A stretch of DNA of 12,336 nt, taken from the NCBI GenBank assembly GCA_020724025.1, contig DYHU01000095.1, positions 1-12,336 on the forward strand, read 5' to 3'. The position numbers were made by a program, and so were the translations under genes. The stretch's first letter is position 1, and each line of letters starts with the position of its first letter. The notes beneath the pieces were generated by a model. That model was given only the letters and a program-made list of their open reading frames with translations. It ran no database searches and was not told the DNA's origin. This document shows, piece after piece, positions 303-11,497 of the stretch. Origin of the DNA: Syntrophorhabdus sp. Lineage in GTDB: Bacteria; Desulfobacterota; BSN033; UBA1163.

Positions 303-428
303 ATGAGTATCTTCAACCTTCGCCAATCCGTAATTGTTGAATACAGCAAATATGTCCAGAGTTTCTTCTCCATCGCTGATCAATTACTTAAAATAGACGA
401 TCTTTGTTTTTCTTTCCGGAGTAAATAA
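303..428 (+). pseudogene. Short N-terminal remnant of a defence-type helicase
   Basis: This 41-codon ORF has a well-placed RBS (GAGGG, 8 nt before the ATG) and ends with TAA directly abutting the ATG of the RadC-family gene at 429. Its start, MSIFNLRQSVIVEYSKYVQS, followed by an F-F-S-I-A-D pattern, matches from memory the opening of large DEAD/DEAH helicases (YprA/DrmA-like, usually of many hundred residues) in defence loci, which begin with a similar aromatic, hydrophobic helix pair. Similarity ends near residue 30 and the rest looks unrelated. The likeliest reading is an internal deletion that removed the helicase and fused its translation-initiation region to the next gene. Alternatively it is an independent leader peptide coupled to translation of the gene at 429. 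The family link is by recollection and is the weak point. Confidence 0.4.
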
Positions 429-1148
429 ATGGATTCAAATTTTCAAAAACCTCATTATCTCGGTCACAGGAAACGCCTCCGTGAGAGATTCCAGAAGACT
501 GGTCTTGCTTCCTTTCAGGATTATGAAGCCGTAGAACTCCTTCTAACATTAGCGATTCCTCGAAAGGATGTTAAAATCCCTGCCAAAGAGGCTATAAAGA
601 GGTTCGGTTCCTTCCGCGGAGTTCTTGACGCCCCGGTCGAAGAATTAAAAAAGATACCCGGAATCGGTGAAGTGGCTCCATTAGCCATTCGATTCATTCG
701 CGAAGCCGCAAACCTCTACCTCCAGCCAAGAAGTCAAGCTGACCTCACATTGCAGAAAACTGAGCCTGAAACGATCTCATTAGAGGACCCAAAAGTTCTT
801 TTCGATTATTGCAAGGCGGCCCTGGGTGCCCAACATAATGAAATGTTTAAAGTCATATATCTAAATAGTCGCTTTAGGGTCATTGACCTTGAGACCTTAA
901 CCGAAGGAACCATTGACAGAGCATCCGTCTACCCACGAAAAGTGATGGAATCGGCGCTGAAAAAGAAGGCCTCAATTATCGTATTTGCTCATAACCACCC
1001 GGATGGAAATGTCACCCCTTCAGATCATGACAAGACCGTCACGCGAGCGCTTGTTCTTGCAGCCAAAACACTCAACATTACTGTTTTCGACCATATCATA
1101 GTCTCTAAAGACGAGGTCTTTAGCTTCCGGGCACAGGGTCTGCTTTAA
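429..1148 (+). CDS. radC: RadC-family JAMM/MPN+ domain protein
   Basis: A complete 239-residue protein with the two-part RadC architecture. The N-terminal half is helical with a helix-hairpin-helix DNA-binding motif (IPGIGEVAPLAIRF, about residues 76-89). The C-terminal half is a JAMM metal-binding domain with the signature H188-N-H190-P...P197-S198-x-x-D201, so the zinc ligands and catalytic serine of the fold are intact. Length is normal for the family. RadC proteins were once called DNA-repair proteins, but that role is unproven; family members are common in mobile and defence islands. GGAG (418-421) lies 7 nt before the ATG, and the stop codon of the preceding remnant touches this start. 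It overlaps the helicase-nuclease gene by one base, so the two are translationally coupled. Placement in this operon suggests an accessory role in DNA processing or control rather than housekeeping. Confidence 0.9.
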   Translation: MDSNFQKPHYLGHRKRLRERFQKTGLASFQDYEAVELLLTLAIPRKDVKIPAKEAIKRFGSFRGVLDAPVEELKKIPGIGEVAPLAIRFIREAANLYLQPRSQADLTLQKTEPETISLEDPKVLFDYCKAALGAQHNEMFKVIYLNSRFRVIDLETLTEGTIDRASVYPRKVMESALKKKASIIVFAHNHPDGNVTPSDHDKTVTRALVLAAKTLNITVFDHIIVSKDEVFSFRAQGLL

Positions 1149-4051
1149 TGGGTGTTTCTGATCAAATTCTCAATGCATTTCCTGATCTGAACTCAACCCA
1201 GTTCGAGGCAGTAGGACATACTGAAGGGCCTTTGCTCATCATTGCTGGCCCTGGCTCTGGAAAAACTCTGGTTCTTGTCGTTAGGGTTCTTAACATCCTT
1301 ATTCAGAAACTGGCCGAACCACGGGATATGCTCATCTGCACCTTTACAGAAAAGGCCGCTTTTGAATTGCGGGATCGAATCTCAGCGGCGGCCAAAAAGC
1401 TAAACTATTCTGGCGACCTGTCAGATCTTCTTGTTGGTACCATTCATGGCATATGTAATGACTTTCTGATGACTTACAGGCATCTCACTCCACTCGGCAA
1501 TAACTATGAAGTCCTTGACGAGCTTACCCAACTTCTGTTTCTATATGACAATTTTGATAAGATCATTGGACAAGAAGCGGATGGGAAATATCTTACCCGA
1601 TGGACAACTCGCTGGACGGCTATTGAAGGCGCCCGGAATTACTTCGATAAGATAACAGAGGAGTTGATTGATCCAATCAAACTTTTGGAATCTCCTGATC
1701 CTTTTATCAAAAGAATCGGGGAGGCCTATCGAGCTTACGAGCAGGCCTTGTATGAAAAGAACGGTATCGATTTTGCTCATCAACAAAAGCTCTGTTACCA
1801 GCTCCTTCAGGACTCGAGAGCGGGTGAGAGCATTAGAGGAAAAATTAAGTATGCGATGGTGGATGAGTATCAAGATACAAATTACATTCAGGAACAACTG
1901 CTTCTCCTTCTGACTAGTCCACGGAATAACATCTGTGTAGTGGGAGACGAAGATCAGAGTATTTACCGGTTTCGTGGCGCCACCGTAAGAAACATCCTCG
2001 AATTTCAAAACCACTTTCCCGCCCGTGAAATTAGTAAACTGACCATTAACTACAGGTCTCACGAAAAGATCATAAAGGCATATAACAAATTTATGATGAG
2101 CCACAATTGGAGCAATCCCGGCTCTGGCCACCAGTTCAGGTACGACAAGGAAATTGTCCCTGACCCTGATGGAAAATTTCCTGATTATCCCGCCGTCTTT
2201 TCCATCTGGGGCGAGACCAAAAATGATGAGGGAAGTCGAATTGCGGATATCGTTCATTTCTTAAAAGAGAACCGAGTCATAGAAGACTACAGCCAGGTAG
2301 CCTTATTTTTGCACAGTGTACGACTGGAACATAGTGAACACTATATTAGGGCGCTCGAAGCTAAAGGTATTCCTGCTTTTTGTCCCCGTGCCCGGGGTTA
2401 TTTTGAGAGTGAAGAAATCCGATATATAGTCGCTTGCTTTGCAATCTTGCTGGGATACTACGGAGAGAATCGGGGAGAAGTGGTAGGAAAGGGTCTCAAC
2501 GAATTGGCAACCTATGTGGATGATTGTCTCGTTGAACTCGGTCGGAGTTGCGGAGCTCCACATCCTCTCTCACTCTGTATCCAGCGATTTGAAGGGGAAA
2601 TTCGGGAATTACAAGAGGGGGAAACCCTCGATCGGAGGCTGGCAGATTATTTTTACCATTTCTTGGCTCATGAGCCGTTTGCCTCCATGGTCAAAAACGA
2701 AAATCGGGCGCGTAACCTTGCAATCTTTTCCCAACTATTGAATGTTTTTCAGAATTACTACCATTACACCGTTATTTCATACCGCAACCGGGATTTTCTT
2801 CGCTTACATTTTTTCAATAGCTTCCTCCGTCTTCTCTATATAGGCGGTATAAACGAGTATGAAGATCCAGACCAACCTTTTCCTAAAGGCTATGTTCAGG
2901 TGATGACCATCCATCAAGCCAAAGGGTTAGAGTTCCCGGTGGTTATCGTTGGCTCTCTTGACAAACAACTCTCCTCGCCTAAAGATGTGGACCGGCGCTT
3001 ATCACCTTTTTACCATAGAGAACCCTTCGAACCCGAAAACAGGATCACCGGATTTGATCGAATGCGACTTCATTATGTTGCTTTCTCCCGGGCAGAGAAA
3101 ATACTTGCGCTTACTTCAACGGAGCAACCAAAACCTTACTTCAATCCAATCTGGCAAGGGTTGCCTCAATGGCCGTATGTGAGGCAGGATCTCCTCAAAT
3201 CACTCTTTTTTCGATTAAGGAGCCGCATGCCCTTAAAGAAGACTTTTAGCTTTACCAGCGATCTTAAGGTCTATGAAACCTGCCCAAGGCAATACCAGTT
3301 TTTTCGAGACTATGACTTTACGCCATCCCGATCAGCAGAAATCTTTTTCGGAGCTTTGGTCCATCACACTATCGAGGATATCCATCGTTTGGTCATGGAT
3401 AAAAGGGCTCATGAGCTAAATGAGAGGAAAATTCGGGAGATCTTTGATTTCAATTTCCGGCATCTCATGGCCAGGGGCATCCGCCCAATTGGGGAGATCC
3501 AGAAGGCTAATGCCTTTTCTCAGGTCATGAACTATTTCAATCAAAATCGAGCCGAGATGGACCGTATCATTGACACCGAGGTCGATGTATCCGTTGAAAA
3601 GGAAAACTATATTCTTTCAGGAAAGATCGATCTCTTACTGGGTTCGGATGATAAGTTGGAGCTCCTCGATTTTAAATCACAACCTCGCCCTATTGAGGAT
3701 GATTTAAGGCTTGATGGCTACTACAAACAGCTTTGCATCTATGCCCATATTCTTGAGCGGCGATACGGCAGGAAAGCAGAGAGACTTTTACTTTACTGGA
3801 CCGGCGAACCCAAACGGTCAGAGGCCTTAATGGAGTTTCCTTACCGTCCCGAAGTTGTTGACGAAGCAGGTATTTATTTCGACCACGTTGTTGACCAGAT
3901 CCTCAAAAAGGATTACAGGATAAGAACCACACCTGAGCATAAGGTCTGTAAGGAGTGCGACCTACGGGTGTATTGTGGCCGTGAAGGGGTCATCAGGTTG
4001 GGTGAGATGAGTGGTATAAAGAAGAAGTGGTCTTATAAGGAGATAAGGTGA
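1148..4051 (+). CDS. UvrD/Rep-type helicase fused to Fe-S PD-(D/E)XK nuclease
   Basis: A 967-residue superfamily 1A helicase with a C-terminal nuclease. Visible helicase motifs are Walker A GPGSGKT (34-40), motif II VDEYQD (238-243), motif III GDEDQSIYRFRGA (266-278), motif IV LTINYRS (298-304), motif V MTIHQAKGLEF (586-596) and motif VI VAFSR (644-648). From about residue 705 there is a RecB/AddB/Cas4-like nuclease: H739/H740 with E743, D828 in GKIDLL, D841-F-K843, and four cysteines C712, C934, C937 and C943. The spacing C-x221-C-x2-C-x5-C is that of the AddB/Cas4 iron-sulphur staple. All catalytic positions look intact. Expected activity is ATP-driven 3'-5' unwinding coupled to single-strand cleavage. 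Unlike AddAB, one chain carries both activities and no partner subunit is adjacent. The ATG overlaps the RadC stop by one base, and the stop is followed at once by the next ATG, indicating one transcript. Confidence 0.9.
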   Translation: MGVSDQILNAFPDLNSTQFEAVGHTEGPLLIIAGPGSGKTLVLVVRVLNILIQKLAEPRDMLICTFTEKAAFELRDRISAAAKKLNYSGDLSDLLVGTIHGICNDFLMTYRHLTPLGNNYEVLDELTQLLFLYDNFDKIIGQEADGKYLTRWTTRWTAIEGARNYFDKITEELIDPIKLLESPDPFIKRIGEAYRAYEQALYEKNGIDFAHQQKLCYQLLQDSRAGESIRGKIKYAMVDEYQDTNYIQEQLLLLLTSPRNNICVVGDEDQSIYRFRGATVRNILEFQNHFPAREISKLTINYRSHEKIIKAYNKFMMSHNWSNPGSGHQFRYDKEIVPDPDGKFPDYPAVFSIWGETKNDEGSRIADIVHFLKENRVIEDYSQVALFLHSVRLEHSEHYIRALEAKGIPAFCPRARGYFESEEIRYIVACFAILLGYYGENRGEVVGKGLNELATYVDDCLVELGRSCGAPHPLSLCIQRFEGEIRELQEGETLDRRLADYFYHFLAHEPFASMVKNENRARNLAIFSQLLNVFQNYYHYTVISYRNRDFLRLHFFNSFLRLLYIGGINEYEDPDQPFPKGYVQVMTIHQAKGLEFPVVIVGSLDKQLSSPKDVDRRLSPFYHREPFEPENRITGFDRMRLHYVAFSRAEKILALTSTEQPKPYFNPIWQGLPQWPYVRQDLLKSLFFRLRSRMPLKKTFSFTSDLKVYETCPRQYQFFRDYDFTPSRSAEIFFGALVHHTIEDIHRLVMDKRAHELNERKIREIFDFNFRHLMARGIRPIGEIQKANAFSQVMNYFNQNRAEMDRIIDTEVDVSVEKENYILSGKIDLLLGSDDKLELLDFKSQPRPIEDDLRLDGYYKQLCIYAHILERRYGRKAERLLLYWTGEPKRSEALMEFPYRPEVVDEAGIYFDHVVDQILKKDYRIRTTPEHKVCKECDLRVYCGREGVIRLGEMSGIKKKWSYKEIR

Positions 4052-5416
4052 ATGATTCAATCCTATCTGGCCAGAGATGAAGGCAAGACGCTCGAATTCA
4101 AGGAAAATTGTAAATCACTGCAACATATTGTTCAGACTGCCGTCGCCTTTGCAAATACTGCGGGTGGTTCCATCGTTATCGGCGTTCGTGACCGAACGAA
4201 AGAGGTAGTTGGTGTAGCCGATTCCCTGGCAGAAGAAGAACGAGTTGCGAATGCATTCGCAGACGGTATTCGACCCCTTCTTGTCCCCGACATACAGATT
4301 CACTCCTGGCGTGATCGGGAACTCATTACAGTAATAATACCCCATACAATCGGGCCGTATTATATTCGGTCAGAGGGTCCAGAGTCGGGTGTCTACATTC
4401 GTTTGGGTTCGACGAATCGGCGGGCGGGCCCTGAAATGATCACAGAAATCCGCCTCCTGGCGCGCAACACCTTCTTTGATGAGCAACCATGCACGGAAGC
4501 GAGCTCGGAACAGGTTGACTTCCGAGCGGCTTCCGAGTTCTTCAAAGCCGTATCAAGGCCTCTTAGTTCCCCTAAACGAAAATCTCTGGGTCTTGTTGTG
4601 GAGTACAGAGGCCGAGAAGTTCCCACAAATGGTGCCGTACTTCTTTTCGGAAAGAATAGAAGTAGCCTCTTCCCGGATGCAAATATTCGCTGTGCTCGAT
4701 TTAAGGGAACTGATACATCAAGGTTTATTGATCAAACAGAAATTGACGAGCATCTTCCAAAGGCAGTGGAGAGCGCCATTTCTTTTGTTGAACGTCACAC
4801 TCTCCAGAGCTTAGAAATTGGCCGAATCCGCCGGAGAGAACAAGCGCAGTACCCTTCCCCCGTGATTCGAGAAGCTATCATCAATGCTATTGTCCATGCT
4901 GATTATTCGATTGGCGGCACTGGAACAAAGCTTGCGATCTTTGATGACCGCATTGAAATCACAAATCCTGGACTATTACCTTTCGGCTTAACTATCGAGG
5001 CTGTCATTTCGGGAGTTTCTCGCCTTCGGAACAGAGTCATTGGGCGCACCTTTCGGGAGTTGAATCTCATCGAACAGTGGGGTTCTGGCATTGGAAGGAT
5101 GCTTGCAGCCTGCGCTGAGGAAGGCTTAAAACCACCGAGATTTGAAGAGATAGGCACGAACTTCCGGGTCACTCTCTTTGAGACAAGAGTTACCACCCCT
5201 GTCCGTCCTGATTGGCATAATCAGGTTGTACGTTATCTTGCCCAAAAAGGCCAGATTTCCACGCAGGAAGCCACACGGCTTTGGAAGACGTCCGACCGCA
5301 CTGCAAGAACCCGCTTGCGTAAACTAGTCATAGATGGGGTGCTCGCCGAGATGGGAACAGGCCCCAAAGACCCCTATAGAACATATATTCTTAAGGAGGG
5401 GTATCCTGTCTCCTGA
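4052..5416 (+). CDS. AlbA_2 (Schlafen-type) protein with ATPase region and winged helix
   Basis: A 454-residue protein of the COG2865 type. The N-terminal AlbA_2 domain shows LEFKEN (14-19) and FANTAGGSIVIGV (33-45), the usual signature of this nucleic-acid-binding fold. The middle third resembles the HATPase_c_4/GHKL module: REAIINAIVHADYS (273-286) is the N-box-like helix, IEITNPG follows, and EQWGSGIGRM (341-350) is the glycine-rich lid. Residues from about 385 to the end form a probable winged helix (QISTQEATRLW...ARTRLRKLV). Members are usually annotated as transcriptional regulators or divergent AAA-4 proteins and are frequent in defence islands. The ATG follows the helicase stop with no gap, and AAGGAG (4037-4042) sits 9 nt upstream inside the preceding gene. 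It could regulate the operon or act as an ATP-dependent nucleic-acid effector; the sequence does not decide. Confidence 0.87.
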   Translation: MIQSYLARDEGKTLEFKENCKSLQHIVQTAVAFANTAGGSIVIGVRDRTKEVVGVADSLAEEERVANAFADGIRPLLVPDIQIHSWRDRELITVIIPHTIGPYYIRSEGPESGVYIRLGSTNRRAGPEMITEIRLLARNTFFDEQPCTEASSEQVDFRAASEFFKAVSRPLSSPKRKSLGLVVEYRGREVPTNGAVLLFGKNRSSLFPDANIRCARFKGTDTSRFIDQTEIDEHLPKAVESAISFVERHTLQSLEIGRIRRREQAQYPSPVIREAIINAIVHADYSIGGTGTKLAIFDDRIEITNPGLLPFGLTIEAVISGVSRLRNRVIGRTFRELNLIEQWGSGIGRMLAACAEEGLKPPRFEEIGTNFRVTLFETRVTTPVRPDWHNQVVRYLAQKGQISTQEATRLWKTSDRTARTRLRKLVIDGVLAEMGTGPKDPYRTYILKEGYPVS

Positions 5417-5435
5417 ATAGGTATATAAATATTTT

Positions 5436-5454
5436 CCCCTTCCTTTTTAAGGGG
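5436..5454 (+). promoter_or_regulatory. GC-rich hairpin between the two gene blocks
   Basis: CCCCTT (5436-5441) pairs with AAGGGG (5449-5454) around a 7-nt loop, in the only sizeable gap (67 nt) of the operon. No T-run follows the stem, so it is not a classic intrinsic terminator. It could stabilise or process the transcript between the upstream trio and the Mod-Res pair, or be a remnant of a dispersed CCCCTT/AAGGGG repeat. A purine-rich AGAGGT (5471-5476) downstream is the RBS of the methyltransferase. Confidence 0.35.
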
Positions 5455-5483
5455 GGCGGGAGGAATTTTAAGAGGTAAGTAAC

Positions 5484-7355
5484 ATGGCAAAAATTGAAAT
5501 TACCAAAACGGAGCTGATGTGGCCGGGGAAATATAATGAGGATGGGACCCGTAAAGAAGTGGAACGGGTAAACCTCCCTTTCCAGGTCATTGAAACAATC
5601 AATGAGACCCGTGCCACACGGGAGGCCGCCAAGAAGCCAAAACAACGTTCACTTTTCGATGTATGGGAAGCCAGAGAAGGCGATACGTTCGAAGAAGGTT
5701 GGAAGAACAAACTCATCTGGGGCGATAATAAACTGGTTATGGCCTCTCTCCTCGAAAAGTTTGCAGGGAAGATCGACCTCATCTATATTGACCCACCATT
5801 TGCAACTGGAGCAGACTTTTCTTTCAACACGCAAATCGGTGACGCCGATTTGGAGGTAACAAAGGAACAATCGATAATCGAAGAAAAAGCGTATAGAGAT
5901 ACTTGGGGAAGAGGACTCGATTCGTATCTTTCTATGATGTATGACAGATTAGTGCTCATGCGAGATCTGTTGGCAGAGGAAGGAAGCATTTACGTTCATT
6001 GTGATTACCGTGTTGTTTACCTTCTTAGAGCCATACTGGAAGAATTATTTGGCAGTGATTATTTCCAGAATGAAATTCAATGGTGCTACAGTATAGGTGG
6101 TAAAGGCGCTCAGCGTTTTGCTCGCAAACACGATACAATTTTATTTTATACAAAGTCAGAAAAATATGTATTTAATGCTAAAGACAGTGATGTCGTGGTA
6201 CCTCGAAAGGCCAATTCCCACATGCGCCTTAAAGTGGATGCTGATGGGAGGGAGTACCAAGAGAAGACTGACAGAAAGACTGGTAAAATTTACCGATACT
6301 ATGTTGATGAAGGTAAGATTCCAGAAGATTACTGGACTGATATTGAACAGTTGAACCGCGAAGATGCTGAGCGTGTTGGATACGAAACGCAGAAACCAGA
6401 AACGCTTCTTCGGAGAATCATTGCTGCCTCTTCTGATGCAGGCCATTTAGTAGCTGATATTTTCTGTGGTTCCGGCACAACCCTTGCTGCTGCCGAAAAA
6501 CTTGGCCGGCGCTGGATTGGTTGTGACCTTTCTCGCTGGGCGATCCATGTCACCCGAAAACGCCTCCTCGGCATCGAAAACTGTAAGCCTTTCGAAGTAC
6601 TTAACCTCGGGAAATATGAACGGAAGTACTGGCAGGGGGTAACGTTTGGTGACAGGAGAAAGACCGACCAGCAACTTGCTATTTATCAGTATCTGGCATT
6701 TATTCTGAAGCTCTATGATGCTGAACCTATTTCCGGGATGCAGCATCTCCATGGGAAGAAAGGCAAAGCCGTTGTCCATGTGGGTGCGGTTGATGCACCG
6801 GTGACTATTGACGAGATCAATGCCTGCCTGGATGAATGTGTGGCAATTCAGCAAAAGGAACTTTACATCCTCGGTTGGGAATGGGAGATGGGACTCTACG
6901 ACCTGATGACCGATGCCGCTAAAGGTCGGGGAATAAAACTCGTTCTCCTTAACATTCCTCGAGAAGTGATGGAGCAACAAGCCGTGGATAAAGGCGATAT
7001 CAAATTCTTCGAATTGGCTTACCTTGAAGTGGATATTAAACAAGAAAAGGGACGGAAGGTTATCGTAGCGCTCAAGGACTTTGTCATCCCCAATACCGAA
7101 CTTATCCCTGAAGATATTCGTTCCAAGGTCAAAAAGTGGGCAGATTATATCGATTACTGGGCCGTGGATTGGAATTTCCAAAACGATACCTTCATGAATG
7201 GCTGGGTGACCTATCGGACTCGAAAGGATCGAACACTTCCACTTAAAAGTGATCCCCACACCTATGAAAAGCCTGGCAAATACACGATAATGGTTAAAGT
7301 TGTAGATATTTTCGGTAACGATACCTCCCAGGCTTTTGAAGCCGAGGTAAAATAG
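5484..7355 (+). CDS. mod: Type III-like adenine-N6 DNA methyltransferase (Mod)
   Basis: A 623-residue site-specific DNA methyltransferase that should methylate adenine in the recognition site using S-adenosylmethionine. Motif order is that of the beta class: catalytic motif IV DPPF (103-106) comes first, then motif X-like YETQKPETLLRRII (300-313) and the SAM-binding motif I FCGSGTT (327-333) with D348 after WIGC. The catalytic motif is DPPF rather than the commoner DPPY, a known functional variant. The stretch between about 200 and 290, with a basic patch (KTDRKTGKIYRYY), is the probable target-recognition region. After residue 370 comes a long C-terminal extension ending in a short PKD/Ig-like segment (HTYEKPGKYTIMVKVVDIFG). 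The start has AGAGGT 7 nt upstream. Only 2 nt separate it from Res, so the pair is co-translated. It marks self DNA and probably supplies specificity to Res. Confidence 0.92.
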   Translation: MAKIEITKTELMWPGKYNEDGTRKEVERVNLPFQVIETINETRATREAAKKPKQRSLFDVWEAREGDTFEEGWKNKLIWGDNKLVMASLLEKFAGKIDLIYIDPPFATGADFSFNTQIGDADLEVTKEQSIIEEKAYRDTWGRGLDSYLSMMYDRLVLMRDLLAEEGSIYVHCDYRVVYLLRAILEELFGSDYFQNEIQWCYSIGGKGAQRFARKHDTILFYTKSEKYVFNAKDSDVVVPRKANSHMRLKVDADGREYQEKTDRKTGKIYRYYVDEGKIPEDYWTDIEQLNREDAERVGYETQKPETLLRRIIAASSDAGHLVADIFCGSGTTLAAAEKLGRRWIGCDLSRWAIHVTRKRLLGIENCKPFEVLNLGKYERKYWQGVTFGDRRKTDQQLAIYQYLAFILKLYDAEPISGMQHLHGKKGKAVVHVGAVDAPVTIDEINACLDECVAIQQKELYILGWEWEMGLYDLMTDAAKGRGIKLVLLNIPREVMEQQAVDKGDIKFFELAYLEVDIKQEKGRKVIVALKDFVIPNTELIPEDIRSKVKKWADYIDYWAVDWNFQNDTFMNGWVTYRTRKDRTLPLKSDPHTYEKPGKYTIMVKVVDIFGNDTSQAFEAEVK

Positions 7356-7357
7356 TC

Positions 7358-10096
7358 ATGACCAAAGCCGTTATTTCTTATGATAAAGACCTGCCAGAGA
7401 TTCCAGATCGACTGGCCCATCTTAAGCCAGATTGCCATCTGATTAAAAAAACTGCCGAAGAATTCGAAATCGTTGAAGGGCGCCGGCCGAGTAAGATGTT
7501 GTTGGTGAATCGCCTTCGCCAGGCTGTGGATAGGTGGCGTGATGAGGGATACCCTGGAGCCTCTTCCGTGACTCAGCGCCTGTTTCAATTCTGGTTCGAA
7601 GAAGATCATCTGTTAAACGGAAATACCTTCCACTACTATTTTGGTCAACAAGAAGCAGTAGAGACCCTTGTTTATCTTATAGAAATTGAAAAAAACCGCG
7701 ATTCAAAACCACTCATTGATTCTTTTGCCGAGGTTTTCAAGAAGGATATGTTTGAGTATAGCCTTGAGCACCAAACCACAATGGATGGTCGTCGTCAGGT
7801 CAGGCGTTATTTTCCGGAATTGGATAGTGATGGTCTCCAGGATCTCCCTCCCGAGAATTTAAGACGCTATGCTTTCAAGATGGCCACTGGCTCAGGTAAA
7901 ACTTATGTGATGGCGATGATTATGGGCTGGTCATACTTTCATCGGAAGATGGTGAAGGGGTCTGATCTCTCAACAAATTTTCTAATTGTTGCTCCGAACG
8001 TAATTGTCTACCAGCGTCTTGAGAAAGATTTTGCGAGCAACAAAATCTTTTATGATCTCCCGCTTATTCCTCCTGAATGGCAATGGAATATGAAAGTGAT
8101 CCTCCGGGGAGAAAGCGCTGAACCAGACCCGAATGGAAACCTTTTTCTCACAAATATCCATCAGATCTACGAATCCAGAGACGAGGAATGGACGCCGGCT
8201 AATGCTGTGGATGCAATCCTTGGTCGAAAGCCAGTTAAAGACCTCGCCTCCCATCAGCGTTCCATGTTAGAACGGCTAAAAAGCCTCCATGATCTTGTGG
8301 TGATTAATGATGAGGCGCATCATGTTCATGATGAAGAGTTAGCCTGGTATAAGACTTTAATGGCGCTTCACGAAAGCCTTCCCAATGGATTAGCATTATG
8401 GCTGGACTTCTCAGCAACACCTAAAGACCAGAACGGCACTTATTATCCCTGGATCGTCTGCGACTATCCCCTTGCTCAAGCCGTGGAGGATCGAATCGTC
8501 AAGGCGCCCCTTATTGTCCATCAGGTGAAACGTGCCGACCCTGAAAAAGTTAATAAGGATAACGTGACCGATGTTTACGGAGAATGGCTTTTTGCTGCCC
8601 TTGAGCGCTGGAAAGAGCACTCCAAGACCTATAAAGCTCTTGGACCAAGACCCGTCCTTTTTATTATGGCTGAGAAGAACGCTTTTGCTGATGAGATTGG
8701 CAAATGGCTATTCGATAAGACTAACAAGACTGGACTGAAGGAGAGCGAAGTACTGGTCATTCATACAGATTCGGAAGGGGAGATCACAAAAGCCTATGTA
8801 GAAGAAGCTCGAAAGGTGGCTCGTGACATTGACCTGGCTACCAACAAGATTAAAGTCATTGTCAGTGTGATGATGCTGAGAGAAGGATGGGATGTTAAGA
8901 ATGTGTCAGTTGTTTTAGGTCTTCGACCATTTACCTCGAAGGCGAAGATCCTTCCCGAGCAGGCTGTTGGCCGAGGACTTCGTCTAATGGAAAATATCAG
9001 CCCTGACCGAACCCAGACGCTGGAGGTATTGGGGACAAAAGCATTTGAAGATTTCGTAAGGCAGTTAGAGATGGAAGGGGTGGGGATCAAGACTGTTACG
9101 AAACCACCCGCTCCACCGATTAAAATAGAACCCGTTCAGGAGAAGATAAAATATGACATTGCCATCCCATTGACCAAACCTGTTTATCTTCATGACTATA
9201 AGAAGCTGTCGTCAATAGACCCGTTGAGCCTTGCCCCGATTTTTGATTATGATGAATTAGAAGAGGAATACCGAATTTCCCTCAGGATGGAGTTTGCTAC
9301 CACTGAAACTGAAATCCATCGAACGGTCATAATTCCGGGCACTCCACCACTTAGTCAAGAGATACTCTCTTCAATCACGAATAAAGTAATTGCTGAGGCT
9401 CGATTGTCGAATGTTTTCGCTGAACTTTATCCAATTGTCAGGACATATGTGGCAGAGCGAGGTTTTGGGCAAAAAATTGACCTGGAGAATGAAGAGATTC
9501 GAAATCACCTTCGAGTTCCAATGCTTCAACAGGGAGTTGCCACATATCTTGCCCGGAAAATAAGTGAGCTTACTTCAGATAAAAGAGAGATCGAATTTGA
9601 GGAGGCAGAATTTAAACTCTCAGACACCCAACCATTCGTCTGGAGGAGACGCCACCTCCAATGTGACCATACTATTTTTAATTATGTGGCCACCTATAAT
9701 GACTTTGAATCGGAATTTGCAAGATTCTTAGACCGATGTCCAGACATCTTGAGATTTGCGGCGTTGGCAGAACACTTCACCCGTTTTCGGGTTGATTACC
9801 TCAGCCCCTCCGGTGCTATCAAATTTTACTATCCGGATTTTGCGGCAGTTCAGAAAGTAAAAAATGGAAAGAAAATCAATTGGATTATTGAAACAAAGGG
9901 GCAAGTCTATGAAGCCGTCGCCTACAAAGAAGCGAGTATTCTGGATTGGTGCAAGAAGGTTTCGGCTCAGGTTGGCGAAGAGTGGCGCTACATCCGGGTT
10001 GACCAAAAAATCTTTGGTGACGGGAAATTCAATAAATTTTCTGATCTGCTTGCAGTAATTGAACCTGGGTTCTATGGATTTAAGAAACTTTTTTAG
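7358..10096 (+). CDS. res: Type III-like restriction endonuclease subunit (Res)
   Basis: A 912-residue superfamily 2 helicase-nuclease. Motifs in order: Walker A MATGSGKT (175-182), Walker B DEAHH (318-322), motif III SAT (352-354), a REGWDVKNV segment, and motif VI EQAVGRGLR (534-542). The C-terminal endonuclease shows PD827 followed by E845-T-K847-G, the PD-(D/E)XK core of type III Res proteins. All catalytic residues appear intact, so the enzyme should translocate on or switch along DNA by ATP hydrolysis and cleave unmethylated targets when bound to Mod. GAGGT (7344-7348) lies 9 nt before the ATG, inside the end of mod. The length is typical of the COG3587 Res group. No obvious terminator follows; a 107-nt AT-rich stretch leads to the next gene. 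Confidence 0.92.
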   Translation: MTKAVISYDKDLPEIPDRLAHLKPDCHLIKKTAEEFEIVEGRRPSKMLLVNRLRQAVDRWRDEGYPGASSVTQRLFQFWFEEDHLLNGNTFHYYFGQQEAVETLVYLIEIEKNRDSKPLIDSFAEVFKKDMFEYSLEHQTTMDGRRQVRRYFPELDSDGLQDLPPENLRRYAFKMATGSGKTYVMAMIMGWSYFHRKMVKGSDLSTNFLIVAPNVIVYQRLEKDFASNKIFYDLPLIPPEWQWNMKVILRGESAEPDPNGNLFLTNIHQIYESRDEEWTPANAVDAILGRKPVKDLASHQRSMLERLKSLHDLVVINDEAHHVHDEELAWYKTLMALHESLPNGLALWLDFSATPKDQNGTYYPWIVCDYPLAQAVEDRIVKAPLIVHQVKRADPEKVNKDNVTDVYGEWLFAALERWKEHSKTYKALGPRPVLFIMAEKNAFADEIGKWLFDKTNKTGLKESEVLVIHTDSEGEITKAYVEEARKVARDIDLATNKIKVIVSVMMLREGWDVKNVSVVLGLRPFTSKAKILPEQAVGRGLRLMENISPDRTQTLEVLGTKAFEDFVRQLEMEGVGIKTVTKPPAPPIKIEPVQEKIKYDIAIPLTKPVYLHDYKKLSSIDPLSLAPIFDYDELEEEYRISLRMEFATTETEIHRTVIIPGTPPLSQEILSSITNKVIAEARLSNVFAELYPIVRTYVAERGFGQKIDLENEEIRNHLRVPMLQQGVATYLARKISELTSDKREIEFEEAEFKLSDTQPFVWRRRHLQCDHTIFNYVATYNDFESEFARFLDRCPDILRFAALAEHFTRFRVDYLSPSGAIKFYYPDFAAVQKVKNGKKINWIIETKGQVYEAVAYKEASILDWCKKVSAQVGEEWRYIRVDQKIFGDGKFNKFSDLLAVIEPGFYGFKKLF

Positions 10097-10203: not shown

Positions 10204-10743
10204 GTGGATATATCGGATTTGATCGCTATTATTTCAAGGCAGTATAAGGAAAAACTTGGTATTGTTCCGGCCAAGACAAAGTTATTGAAACTGGCATACC
10301 TAGCAGAAGTCTACTATACCAGGCTAACAGGCAATAGGTTGACGAACCAGGAATGGGTGTTCTGGAAATACGGACCATATCTCTGGGAGTATGAGGAAAT
10401 AATTTCGAACCAAGCGATCTTTGTGGCGCCGGAGGAAGCAGATGACTTTTACCCAGTAGAAGTTAGGGATGATTATCAAACGAAGGAGACGAGCCTGGAT
10501 GAAAACAGTGCGGTAGCTCGGGCTCTGGAACATGCAAGCGATGATCTTAACCAATTACTCGACTTTGTCTACTTCGATACCGAACCAATGATGACGGCTA
10601 AGATAAGAGGTGAAAAATTGGATTTTAGTTCAGTAATGCCAGAGGAATATTATACCATAAAGAAGTTTGAGGTTAAAAAGAAGCAAGGAAGCCAAATTAT
10701 TCAAAAAATAAGAAAGTGGGGGACTAGTAAAAAGGATGCCTGA
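10204..10743 (+). CDS. Panacea (SocA/DUF4065) domain antitoxin-like protein
   Basis: A 179-residue protein matching the Panacea domain: the KLLKLAYLAEVYY helix (about 28-40), the EWVFWKYGPYL segment (50-60) that corresponds to the conserved KYGP motif, and near the end FDTEPMMTAKIRGEKLDFS (about 125-143), the family's closing helix. No catalytic residues are apparent. Panacea proteins are antitoxin domains that pair with very diverse toxins; SocA, an adaptor for ClpXP degradation of SocB, is the classic member. The C-terminus is lysine-rich. Translation starts at GTG. Its stop lies within the first codons of the next frame (8-bp overlap), the antitoxin-then-toxin arrangement usual for these pairs. 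The region is more AT-rich than the preceding operon, suggesting a separately acquired module. Confidence 0.75.
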   Translation: MDISDLIAIISRQYKEKLGIVPAKTKLLKLAYLAEVYYTRLTGNRLTNQEWVFWKYGPYLWEYEEIISNQAIFVAPEEADDFYPVEVRDDYQTKETSLDENSAVARALEHASDDLNQLLDFVYFDTEPMMTAKIRGEKLDFSSVMPEEYYTIKKFEVKKKQGSQIIQKIRKWGTSKKDA

Positions 10744-10942
10744 CAAAGGCGTTAGTAAATTGTACGAGTACTGTTGTGATGGTCAGTTTTACGAATGGGT
10801 TTTCCCAGATGACTTTGGAAATCCGCCTCCAAATGTTGATGACAAATATATTTGCATGGGTCCTGTTTTTTATAAGGACGATGAAATATTAACCCTGATA
10901 GAAGATAAATATGATTCAATACATGAAGAAAAGTCTACATGA
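10736..10942 (+). CDS. Small ORF overlapping the Panacea gene, 5' part of interrupted partner
   Basis: This 68-residue frame begins MPDKGVSKLYEY and is acidic and aromatic-rich, with FYEWVFPDDFG and DDKYICMGPVFY. Its ATG overlaps the stop of the antitoxin-like gene by 8 bp, and AAAAGG just upstream within that gene is a weak RBS, so translation is probably coupled. I recognise no domain. It may be a stand-alone small protein, but the open frame directly beyond its stop makes a truncated N-terminal domain more likely. Confidence 0.5.
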   Translation: MPDKGVSKLYEYCCDGQFYEWVFPDDFGNPPPNVDDKYICMGPVFYKDDEILTLIEDKYDSIHEEKST

Positions 10943-11029: not shown

Positions 11030-11497
11030 TTGATGGTCCTTAAATGCAAGATAAGGCCGGTCTTGGTTATCAAAAAGATTGAGTCTGATTGGAGGATTCC
11101 ATACAAGTATTCTTTCAATATCTGGCTTTGTTTACCCCTTTTTTCTTACAAGGACAGGCATTCCCAAGGATATGTCTTATCGGATCAAATGCTGCACGTA
11201 CCGCACAGATTTTATTTCCCGCCCGGCAACCCCGGTGTGGGAGAGGAATGTGCGGGTTTAATAAATGAACTCCAATTCATCCCTGAAATCAACCTTTATC
11301 CCAAAAAGTTTTTTTGTGACGATAGAGATCCCAAAATGAATCGACCCATTAAATTAAGCGACAAAGCCTTTCATGCTGTTATTGGACACATTGCCCAATT
11401 TCTCCCTGGGATTGTCATTTCGGGTGAATCAAATGAATGGTATGATTTCTTTAAAGAGCTTGTAAATGAAGAAATCTCTAAAGTGGTTCATCCTTGA
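11030..11497 (+). CDS. 3' part of the interrupted partner, possibly MazF/PemK-like
   Basis: This frame (155 residues from TTG 11030, or one fewer from ATG 11033) contains KCKIRPVLVIKKI near its start, then a hydrophobic strand with LCLPLFSY, then a G-Y-V-L-S turn, and ends with a helical segment (SDKAFHAVIGHIAQFLPGI). The R-P-V-L-V-I strand followed by a strand ending in C-x-P resembles the SH3-like core of MazF/PemK ribonucleases, but the middle is longer than usual and the match is by eye only. It would be the toxic part of the pair if the family call is right. It may be a fragment of no function. Confidence 0.4.
   Translation: MMVLKCKIRPVLVIKKIESDWRIPYKYSFNIWLCLPLFSYKDRHSQGYVLSDQMLHVPHRFYFPPGNPGVGEECAGLINELQFIPEINLYPKKFFCDDRDPKMNRPIKLSDKAFHAVIGHIAQFLPGIVISGESNEWYDFFKELVNEEISKVVHP

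Follow-up and report, generated by a model that had tools for sequence, protein, structure and literature searches.

A RadC and helicase-nuclease gene pair ahead of a type III-like Mod-Res pair in Syntrophorhabdus sp., with a putative variable slot between them

Positions 1 to 12,336 of contig DYHU01000095.1 from Syntrophorhabdus sp. (assembly GCA_020724025.1), the 12,336-nucleotide stretch that we refer to as the window, contain a putative defence operon of five genes, all on the plus strand and intact in the window's listing of open reading frames (ORFs). The leftmost codes for a RadC protein (429..1148; 239 aa, with HhH and JAB domains in Pfam and NCBIfam) and is followed by a gene for a UvrD-family helicase fused to a Cas4-like PD-(D/E)XK nuclease (1148..4051; 967 aa, Pfam), here called the helicase-nuclease. 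To its right are the AlbA_2 gene, whose product has a Schlafen AlbA_2 domain, a GHKL-type HATPase_c_4 domain and a helix-turn-helix (HTH) (4052..5416; 454 aa, Pfam), the type III-like N6/N4 DNA methyltransferase gene Mod (5484..7355; 623 aa, Pfam and PADLOC), and Res (7358..10096; 912 aa), which Pfam and motifs identify as a superfamily 2 (SF2) helicase with a C-terminal PD..ETK nuclease motif. An initial annotation of this locus described five intact co-directional genes with near-zero spacing except for one 67-nt gap, and this is exact: in gene order the junctions are -1, 0, +67 and +2 nt, and no convincing promoter or terminator pattern was found in the 67-nt intergenic gap between AlbA_2 and Mod (5417..5483). 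Its start at position 303 was wrong, because 303-428 is a separate 41-aa ORF, in frame with RadC and closed by a TAA stop at 426-428, and RadC starts at 429. This small ORF weakly resembles the first part of DEAD/DEAH-box helicase genes of Thermus (best E 0.1) and has zero PADLOC matches; it is possibly the remnant of a helicase gene.

The family labels of the five genes are each backed by Pfam scores, and catalytic motifs reported as intact are indeed seen in RadC, the helicase-nuclease, Mod and Res. RadC scores 131.9 bits in Pfam and lies above its NCBIfam cut-offs (TIGR00608, 177.5 vs 133.85 bits; NF000642, 186.5 vs 180 bits); the motif H-x-H-x7-S-x2-D is present (HNHPDGNVTPSDHD), and PADLOC gave zero matches for this protein. 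The position of the 'PRE' glutamate of 2QLC is a lysine in the window RadC, and alignment shows 'PRxxxE' instead in all nine operon RadCs, in which a shift of the metal-site glutamate by about one helical turn is possible. The helicase-nuclease matches UvrD-helicase (223.9 bits), PDDEXK_1 (74.1 bits) and Cas_Cas4 (26.3 bits) in Pfam and contains the motifs GPGSGKT, DEYQDTN, GKID and LLDFK. Across an alignment of 21 rows DEYQDTN, the nuclease residues D828 and D841-x-K843, and the cysteines C712, C934, C937 and C943 are invariant. It scores 189.9 bits against PADLOC GajB and misses all of the repair equivalog cut-offs (AddA, 176.6 vs 707.65 bits; RecB, 106.3 vs 696.05 bits).

Mod scores 150.6 bits against Pfam N6_N4_Mtase and 451.7 bits against PADLOC MTase_III. 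Its identity profile has a variable centre at about residues 200-310: over seven comparisons residues 241-280 are 8-34% identical to those of the window protein, and the flanks are more alike (57-87% in 81-120, and 60-90% in 321-360). Such a profile is that of an exchangeable target-recognition domain. In Res the motifs TGSGKT, DEAH and PD..ETK are invariant in an alignment of 19 rows, and Pfam gives 65.6 bits to ResIII and 20.1 bits, under its cut-off, to RE_endonuc. The proposal that Mod and Res are a type III-like pair holds, as the genes are adjacent, Mod has a DPPx motif before FxGxG (DPPF, then FCGSGTT) and the variable centre, and Res is an SF2 protein with a PD-(D/E)xK motif. Because the curated type III cut-offs are missed by Res (PRK15483, 31.9 vs 564 bits; BPTD_3080, 280.4 vs 800 bits), we file the pair as type III-like only.

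The AlbA_2 protein has Pfam matches to SLFN_AlbA_2 (75.1 bits) and HATPase_c_4 (93.5 bits), and its HTH is C-terminal. An alignment of 16 rows shows no variation at residues E10, E15 and D47, and a profile match places them on E205, E210 and D248 of rat SLFN13 (5YD0), a pairing counted along the alignment with a 13-residue offset. Mutating any of these three residues lowers SLFN13 activity, and E205A and E210A are inactive, according to the available part of PMC5862951. A predicted AlbA_2 model also matches Schlafen N-domains, with 5YD0 at rank 6 (E 2.8e-4) behind matches that include an uncharacterised relative, 3LMM, and the RecG-related 2KYY. The models of AlbA_2 and Res are of middling quality (pLDDT 71.0 and 71.8), and their fold matches are thus used only to back up the sequence evidence. 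The first reading of AlbA_2 was that it senses or regulates; because the Schlafen catalytic triad is intact, a backup effector acting as a Schlafen-type RNase is the likelier assignment.

Whole genomes in five phylum samples were searched with the helicase-nuclease at E 1e-100, and matches were obtained in 0/198, 4/297, 3/199, 1/299 and 0/121 genomes; a class-level search added one match in 46 genomes, already found in the phylum samples. Seven of the eight helicase-nucleases are close to that of the window (48-68% identity) and the eighth is at 37-39%. RadC lies directly upstream of every close one (7/7: L090, L091, L092, L093, L151, L152 and L153), and in the loci whose contig continues Mod follows in 6/6 and Res in 5/6, bearing out the expectation that the helicase-nuclease is found mostly beside Mod and Res. 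Several copies are damaged or truncated: in L090 the contig stops after the helicase-nuclease and RadC is split between two frames, in L091 the Mod reading frame is broken, and in L153 the Mod match ends at residue 452 and Res was not found in its stretch. A contig of a viral collection (L100) has RadC, the helicase-nuclease, a 1510-aa protein, Mod and Res in order, and the eighth genome locus (L154) has the helicase-nuclease, Mod and a ResIII/TnsA-domain protein, with RadC absent. RadC and helicase-nuclease reading frames overlap by 1-4 nt in seven of the nine loci measured. As other genomes repeat these genes in this order, the arrangement is beyond chance, and the sparse distribution suggests that the operon moves horizontally as a block.

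The closest relatives of Res reach 86-90% identity, and genome searches with Res matched 12/297, 3/198 and 1/6 genomes. Among six Res proteins at 51-64% identity, four have a helicase-nuclease nearby (L091, L092, L093 and L143); L135 has Res with only the C-terminal part of the helicase-nuclease, Mod not being found there, and the Res locus L124, which belongs to genome G001, ends in Mod. A profile scan of genome contigs with the helicase-nuclease relied on UvrD patterns of a generic kind and mostly brought up UvrD proteins that are unrelated, so the contexts described here are drawn from whole genomes, plasmids and viral contigs. Matches among metagenome proteins share 14 contig sizes of at least 8 kb between Res (69) and the helicase-nuclease (71), with at most 1 shared size across 50 offset controls. 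This test is one-way, the window's own contig being missing from the Res list while holding both genes, and because the proteins are clustered at 90%, absences in it, including those for AlbA_2, are uninformative.

The position between the helicase-nuclease and Mod varies. In two of six close operons it holds an AlbA_2-HATPase_c_4 protein (L151 and L092, 48% and 29% identical to that of the window), and in four of six it holds no gene. L143 has a DUF4062-HATPase_c_4 protein there, and the 1510-aa protein of L100 (12802-17334) is a Sacsin-ATPase/NOV_C protein scoring 1510.5 bits against PADLOC TmtA, a name whose meaning was not found among the matches listed from open-licence PMC literature. 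We take the slot ATPases to share a GHKL-type ATPase domain. A search with AlbA_2 matched 12/297 genomes, and for ten of the twelve matches the surrounding stretch contains neither a helicase-nuclease nor Mod nor Res (the stretches of L168, L171 and L176 are short on one side); L172 and L135 are the two that lie by operon genes. AlbA_2 homologues are thus not tied to Mod and Res as had been supposed, and a conserved order of all five families stands for RadC, the helicase-nuclease, Mod and Res and not for AlbA_2, which by its distribution is best described as an optional occupant of a variable slot and not as part of the core. In L172 (91-4111) the end of a helicase-nuclease gene is followed by a broken AlbA_2 gene with transposase-like ORFs nearby; this AlbA_2 is 91% identical to that of the window over its first 226 residues, after which the match is lost. 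We had considered the window AlbA_2 as a recent recruit from outside, an idea weakened by this 91% identical copy behind a helicase-nuclease end. Downstream of the Res-type gene, L154 also encodes a HATPase_c_3 protein that weakly resembles Shedu.

Divergence of RadC and of the helicase-nuclease was compared with that of Mod and Res, as was gene spacing, and for these two genes both comparisons agree with membership, with the usual 1-4 nt overlap and correlations with Res of 0.94-0.98. Over eight loci Mantel rho is 0.96 for RadC and the helicase-nuclease, 0.94 for RadC and Res and 0.98 for the helicase-nuclease and Res, values reached in 1-3 of 5000 permutations; without L143 the three values come to 0.93, 0.94 and 0.98, equalled or exceeded by 1-11 of 5000 permutations. 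L143 has the order RadC, UvrD-PDDEXK protein, DUF4062-HATPase_c_4 protein, Mod and Res, its helicase-nuclease is 28% and its Res 50% identical to those of the window, and in a helicase-nuclease tree of 25 rows it is set apart behind branches supported at 100/99 and 100/100. Its RadC groups at 100/100 with that of genome G001, in which one contig has a RadC and the start of a helicase-nuclease (91% and 88% identical to those of L143) and another has the end of Mod and Res (92% and 91%). A second lineage of RadC and helicase-nuclease thus precedes Mod and Res, within one locus in L143 and in pieces, at 88-92% identity, in G001. Given the well-supported branches of the helicase-nuclease tree, the RadC label must have changed at least twice, and the simplest reading is that RadC joined the operon by two separate gains.

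In a first RadC tree the eight operon RadCs (without L143) grouped with support of 82/86, and with closer outgroups they split into six (99/99) and two (100/99), although the data do not reject a tree that keeps the eight together (p-AU 0.488). RadC itself is widespread, with at least one copy in all 30 genomes searched, which were those already matched by other queries. Of 20 non-operon copies fetched, 19 have no other operon gene in the stretch examined, some of these stretches being short, and one is the G001 locus with its operon-type neighbours. The tie of RadC to Mod and Res thus holds for the operon copy, which adjoins the close helicase-nuclease in 7/7, and fails for the 19/20 copies elsewhere. 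On plasmids 1886 records match RadC, the best among the matches listed having 38.8% identity. Genome G341 contains a 76-residue RadC fragment (C1:981841-982068) 62% identical to that of the window as well as an AlbA_2 fragment (69%, L177), and these are perhaps the remains of a similar operon.

Plasmid sequences extend the family. The helicase-nuclease matches 24 plasmid records at E 1e-60, including near full-length relatives at 34-37% identity (H1-H17), of which all but H2 were examined; H21-H24 lie outside the neighbourhood comparison. In fifteen of the 16, Annamia being the exception, the helicase-nuclease is followed by a methyltransferase gene and, after it, by a large one that is annotated as a DEAD/DEAH helicase, as a TnsA-domain protein or, in Spirosoma after two small genes, as a conserved protein. 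Mod and a DEAD/DEAH gene are likewise present in H19; neither was seen in H20 or in the unannotated H18. Pfam was applied to three of the Res-type genes, and ResIII scores above its cut-off in L106 and L110 but slightly under it in L101. The window Res had no match among the plasmid Res genes, which are therefore of a distant kind. In L101, L106 and L154 the Res-type protein ends in a TnsA-like domain in place of the PD..ETK motif of the window.

From these patterns we slightly favour the view that RadC, the helicase-nuclease, Mod and Res form a stable unit, a type III-like operon with an interchangeable effector slot. The initial proposal that all five genes are one system is thus kept for RadC and the helicase-nuclease together with Mod and Res, on grounds of order, overlap, co-divergence and the second lineage, and is given up for AlbA_2, present in 2/6. 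Several observations weigh against such a unit. No plasmid relative examined has an adjacent RadC (0/16), a JAB-domain gene about 7 kb away in L103 being the single case of its kind among them; Mod and a Res-type gene are present beside these relatives, so RadC is not a universal requirement. L099, a contig of the viral collection, has a helicase-nuclease and Mod at its end, and RadC was not found. Four of the five distant helicase-nucleases L001-L005 (28-42% identity; the five most similar loci of the genome-contig scan) show no Mod or Res match, L005 being the sole case with Mod and a weak Res match. Ten Res proteins at 35-40% identity have Mod and no detectable helicase-nuclease in the stretch, several of these stretches ending near Mod, and L157 is a further such Mod-Res pair. 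The RadCs of L093, L153 and L143 (40-43%) are no closer to that of the window than chromosomal RadCs are (up to 48%). Mod taken whole tracks the other genes less (rho 0.74-0.81, and 0.44-0.60 without L143); its first 180 residues give 0.87-0.90 (0.72-0.80 without L143), and residues 190-300 do not track them at all (0.26-0.33, and -0.18 to -0.11 without L143). The co-divergence would be produced equally by plain vertical descent, most loci were found through the helicase-nuclease, which favours operons containing it, and a profile search of PDB chains with Res found none at 1e-3.

If the four genes do act together, their families suggest an order of events that begins with restriction. Mod would use its variable central domain to recognise a short site and would methylate host DNA, as its family and variability imply, and Res would translocate and cut DNA with unmethylated sites. 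The helicase-nuclease may then load onto the ends, unwinding and degrading them so that cut phage DNA is beyond repair, and RadC may be its partner there, with DNA ends, branched DNA or nucleotides as substrate. Where the DNA-level defence fails, the Schlafen-type RNase in the slot, with its GHKL-type ATPase and HTH, could serve as a second-line, growth-arresting effector. We suggest tentatively that RadC and the UvrD/Cas4 helicase-nuclease are a dedicated module for DNA-end processing, recruited to Mod-Res at least twice, whose failure or products trigger whichever ATPase-gated effector is in the slot (Schlafen RNase, DUF4062 or Sacsin/NOV_C). Such a module would turn a simple cut into complete destruction, in a layered restrict-then-abort response with a defined role for RadC.

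A serious rival for the role of these two proteins is repair. They would still belong to the unit and would provide self-tolerance, by resecting or repairing the breaks that Res makes in the chromosome where sites are transiently unmethylated. We regard this as rather doubtful, and the present data do not separate repair from end degradation. The helicase-nuclease resembles the repair enzymes AddA and PcrA, RadC is present in all 30 genomes whether or not they have the operon, and Hudaiberdiev et al. (2017; PMC5704561, in the part available) likened the role of the nuclease domain to that of RecB and AddB in recombination; the same authors, from genomic context, placed UvrD-Cas4 fusions among the components of defence systems. 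The role of RadC in DNA repair is disputed (PMC5512222). This protein is very common in bacteria, and where overlap and co-divergence link an extra copy to a helicase-nuclease and restriction genes, a part in phage restriction becomes testable.

Two further explanations concern the composition of the operon. It could be an ordinary type III-like Mod-Res pair joined by passing defence genes, with RadC and the helicase-nuclease acting alone, in keeping with the Mod-Res pairs that have no detectable helicase-nuclease (the ten loci and L157) and with AlbA_2, which behaves like a visitor. The adjacency of RadC in 7/7, the overlapping frames, the rho of 0.93-0.98, the second RadC/helicase-nuclease lineage in the same place and the 15/16 near full-length plasmid relatives that also precede Mod and a Res-type gene make such hitch-hiking unlikely. 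The earlier reading, in which all five genes are obligatory and AlbA_2 is a DNA-binding sensor or regulator, seems highly improbable to us. It draws on the HTH that ends the protein, on the AlbA_2-HATPase proteins in the same slot of L151 and L092, and on the broken L172 copy right behind a helicase-nuclease end, and it is at odds with the absence of a slot gene in 4/6 close operons, the intact RNase triad, and the other ATPase proteins in the slots of L143 and L100.

To the right of Res there is a SocA-like gene (Panacea, antitoxin-type, Pfam; 10204-10743), overlapped by a 68-aa ORF (10736-10942) and followed by an ORF without a Pfam match (11030-11497); these two ORFs may be fragments of one broken SocA-partner gene. 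Two short inverted repeats lie beyond them, with arms at 12014-12030/12112-12128 and 12262-12275/12317-12330, the latter looking like a repeat element.

Parts of this locus have counterparts in known systems. Like the type III enzyme EcoP15I it has a beta-class Mod with a variable centre (EcoP15I Mod matched at E 6.5e-17) and an SF2 Res with PD..ETK (EcoP15I Res, E 4.3e-4; Foldseek rank 2 in fold, E 4.7e-8, with low TM-scores), and it differs in adding RadC and the helicase-nuclease and in falling under the NCBIfam cut-offs. The UvrD-family helicase recalls GajB of Gabija and also AddAB and RecBCD, but in the window helicase and nuclease are in one protein, and the genes next to it are RadC and AlbA_2 rather than the OLD-type nuclease GajA, a family absent from the listed PADLOC matches of the five genes (the best 25 for two of them). 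A 2026 BREX survey (PMC12839542, in its available part) describes backup RNase effectors made of a Schlafen domain, a minimal histidine-kinase-like ATPase and a winged HTH (wHTH), encoded inside or next to DNA-modification defence operons; the AlbA_2 protein of the window has the same architecture but belongs to a type III-like operon, where its slot is open to other ATPase proteins, which suggests a way for restriction systems to acquire interchangeable second-line effectors, as for BREX. The nearest precedent is that of Hudaiberdiev et al. (PMC5704561), who in 2017 published, in the sections available, UvrD-like helicases fused to Cas4-like PF12705 nucleases beside type III Mod and Res; several of those loci also encode a Schlafen-like ATPase joined to an HTH. 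The window agrees with this context, as one of its proteins combines a UvrD helicase with a PF12705 nuclease and is encoded near Mod and Res. It differs in that RadC, which together with JAB is absent from the main text of that paper (the comparison covering the main text and not the supplements), is the first gene of the operon, overlaps that of the helicase-nuclease and diverges in step with it, and in that the ATPase position is a variable slot. Open-licence PMC literature, mostly without full text, gave no description of RadC in an operon with type III or UvrD genes. The combination was thus largely anticipated in 2017, and it is the RadC component and the interchangeable slot that look new.

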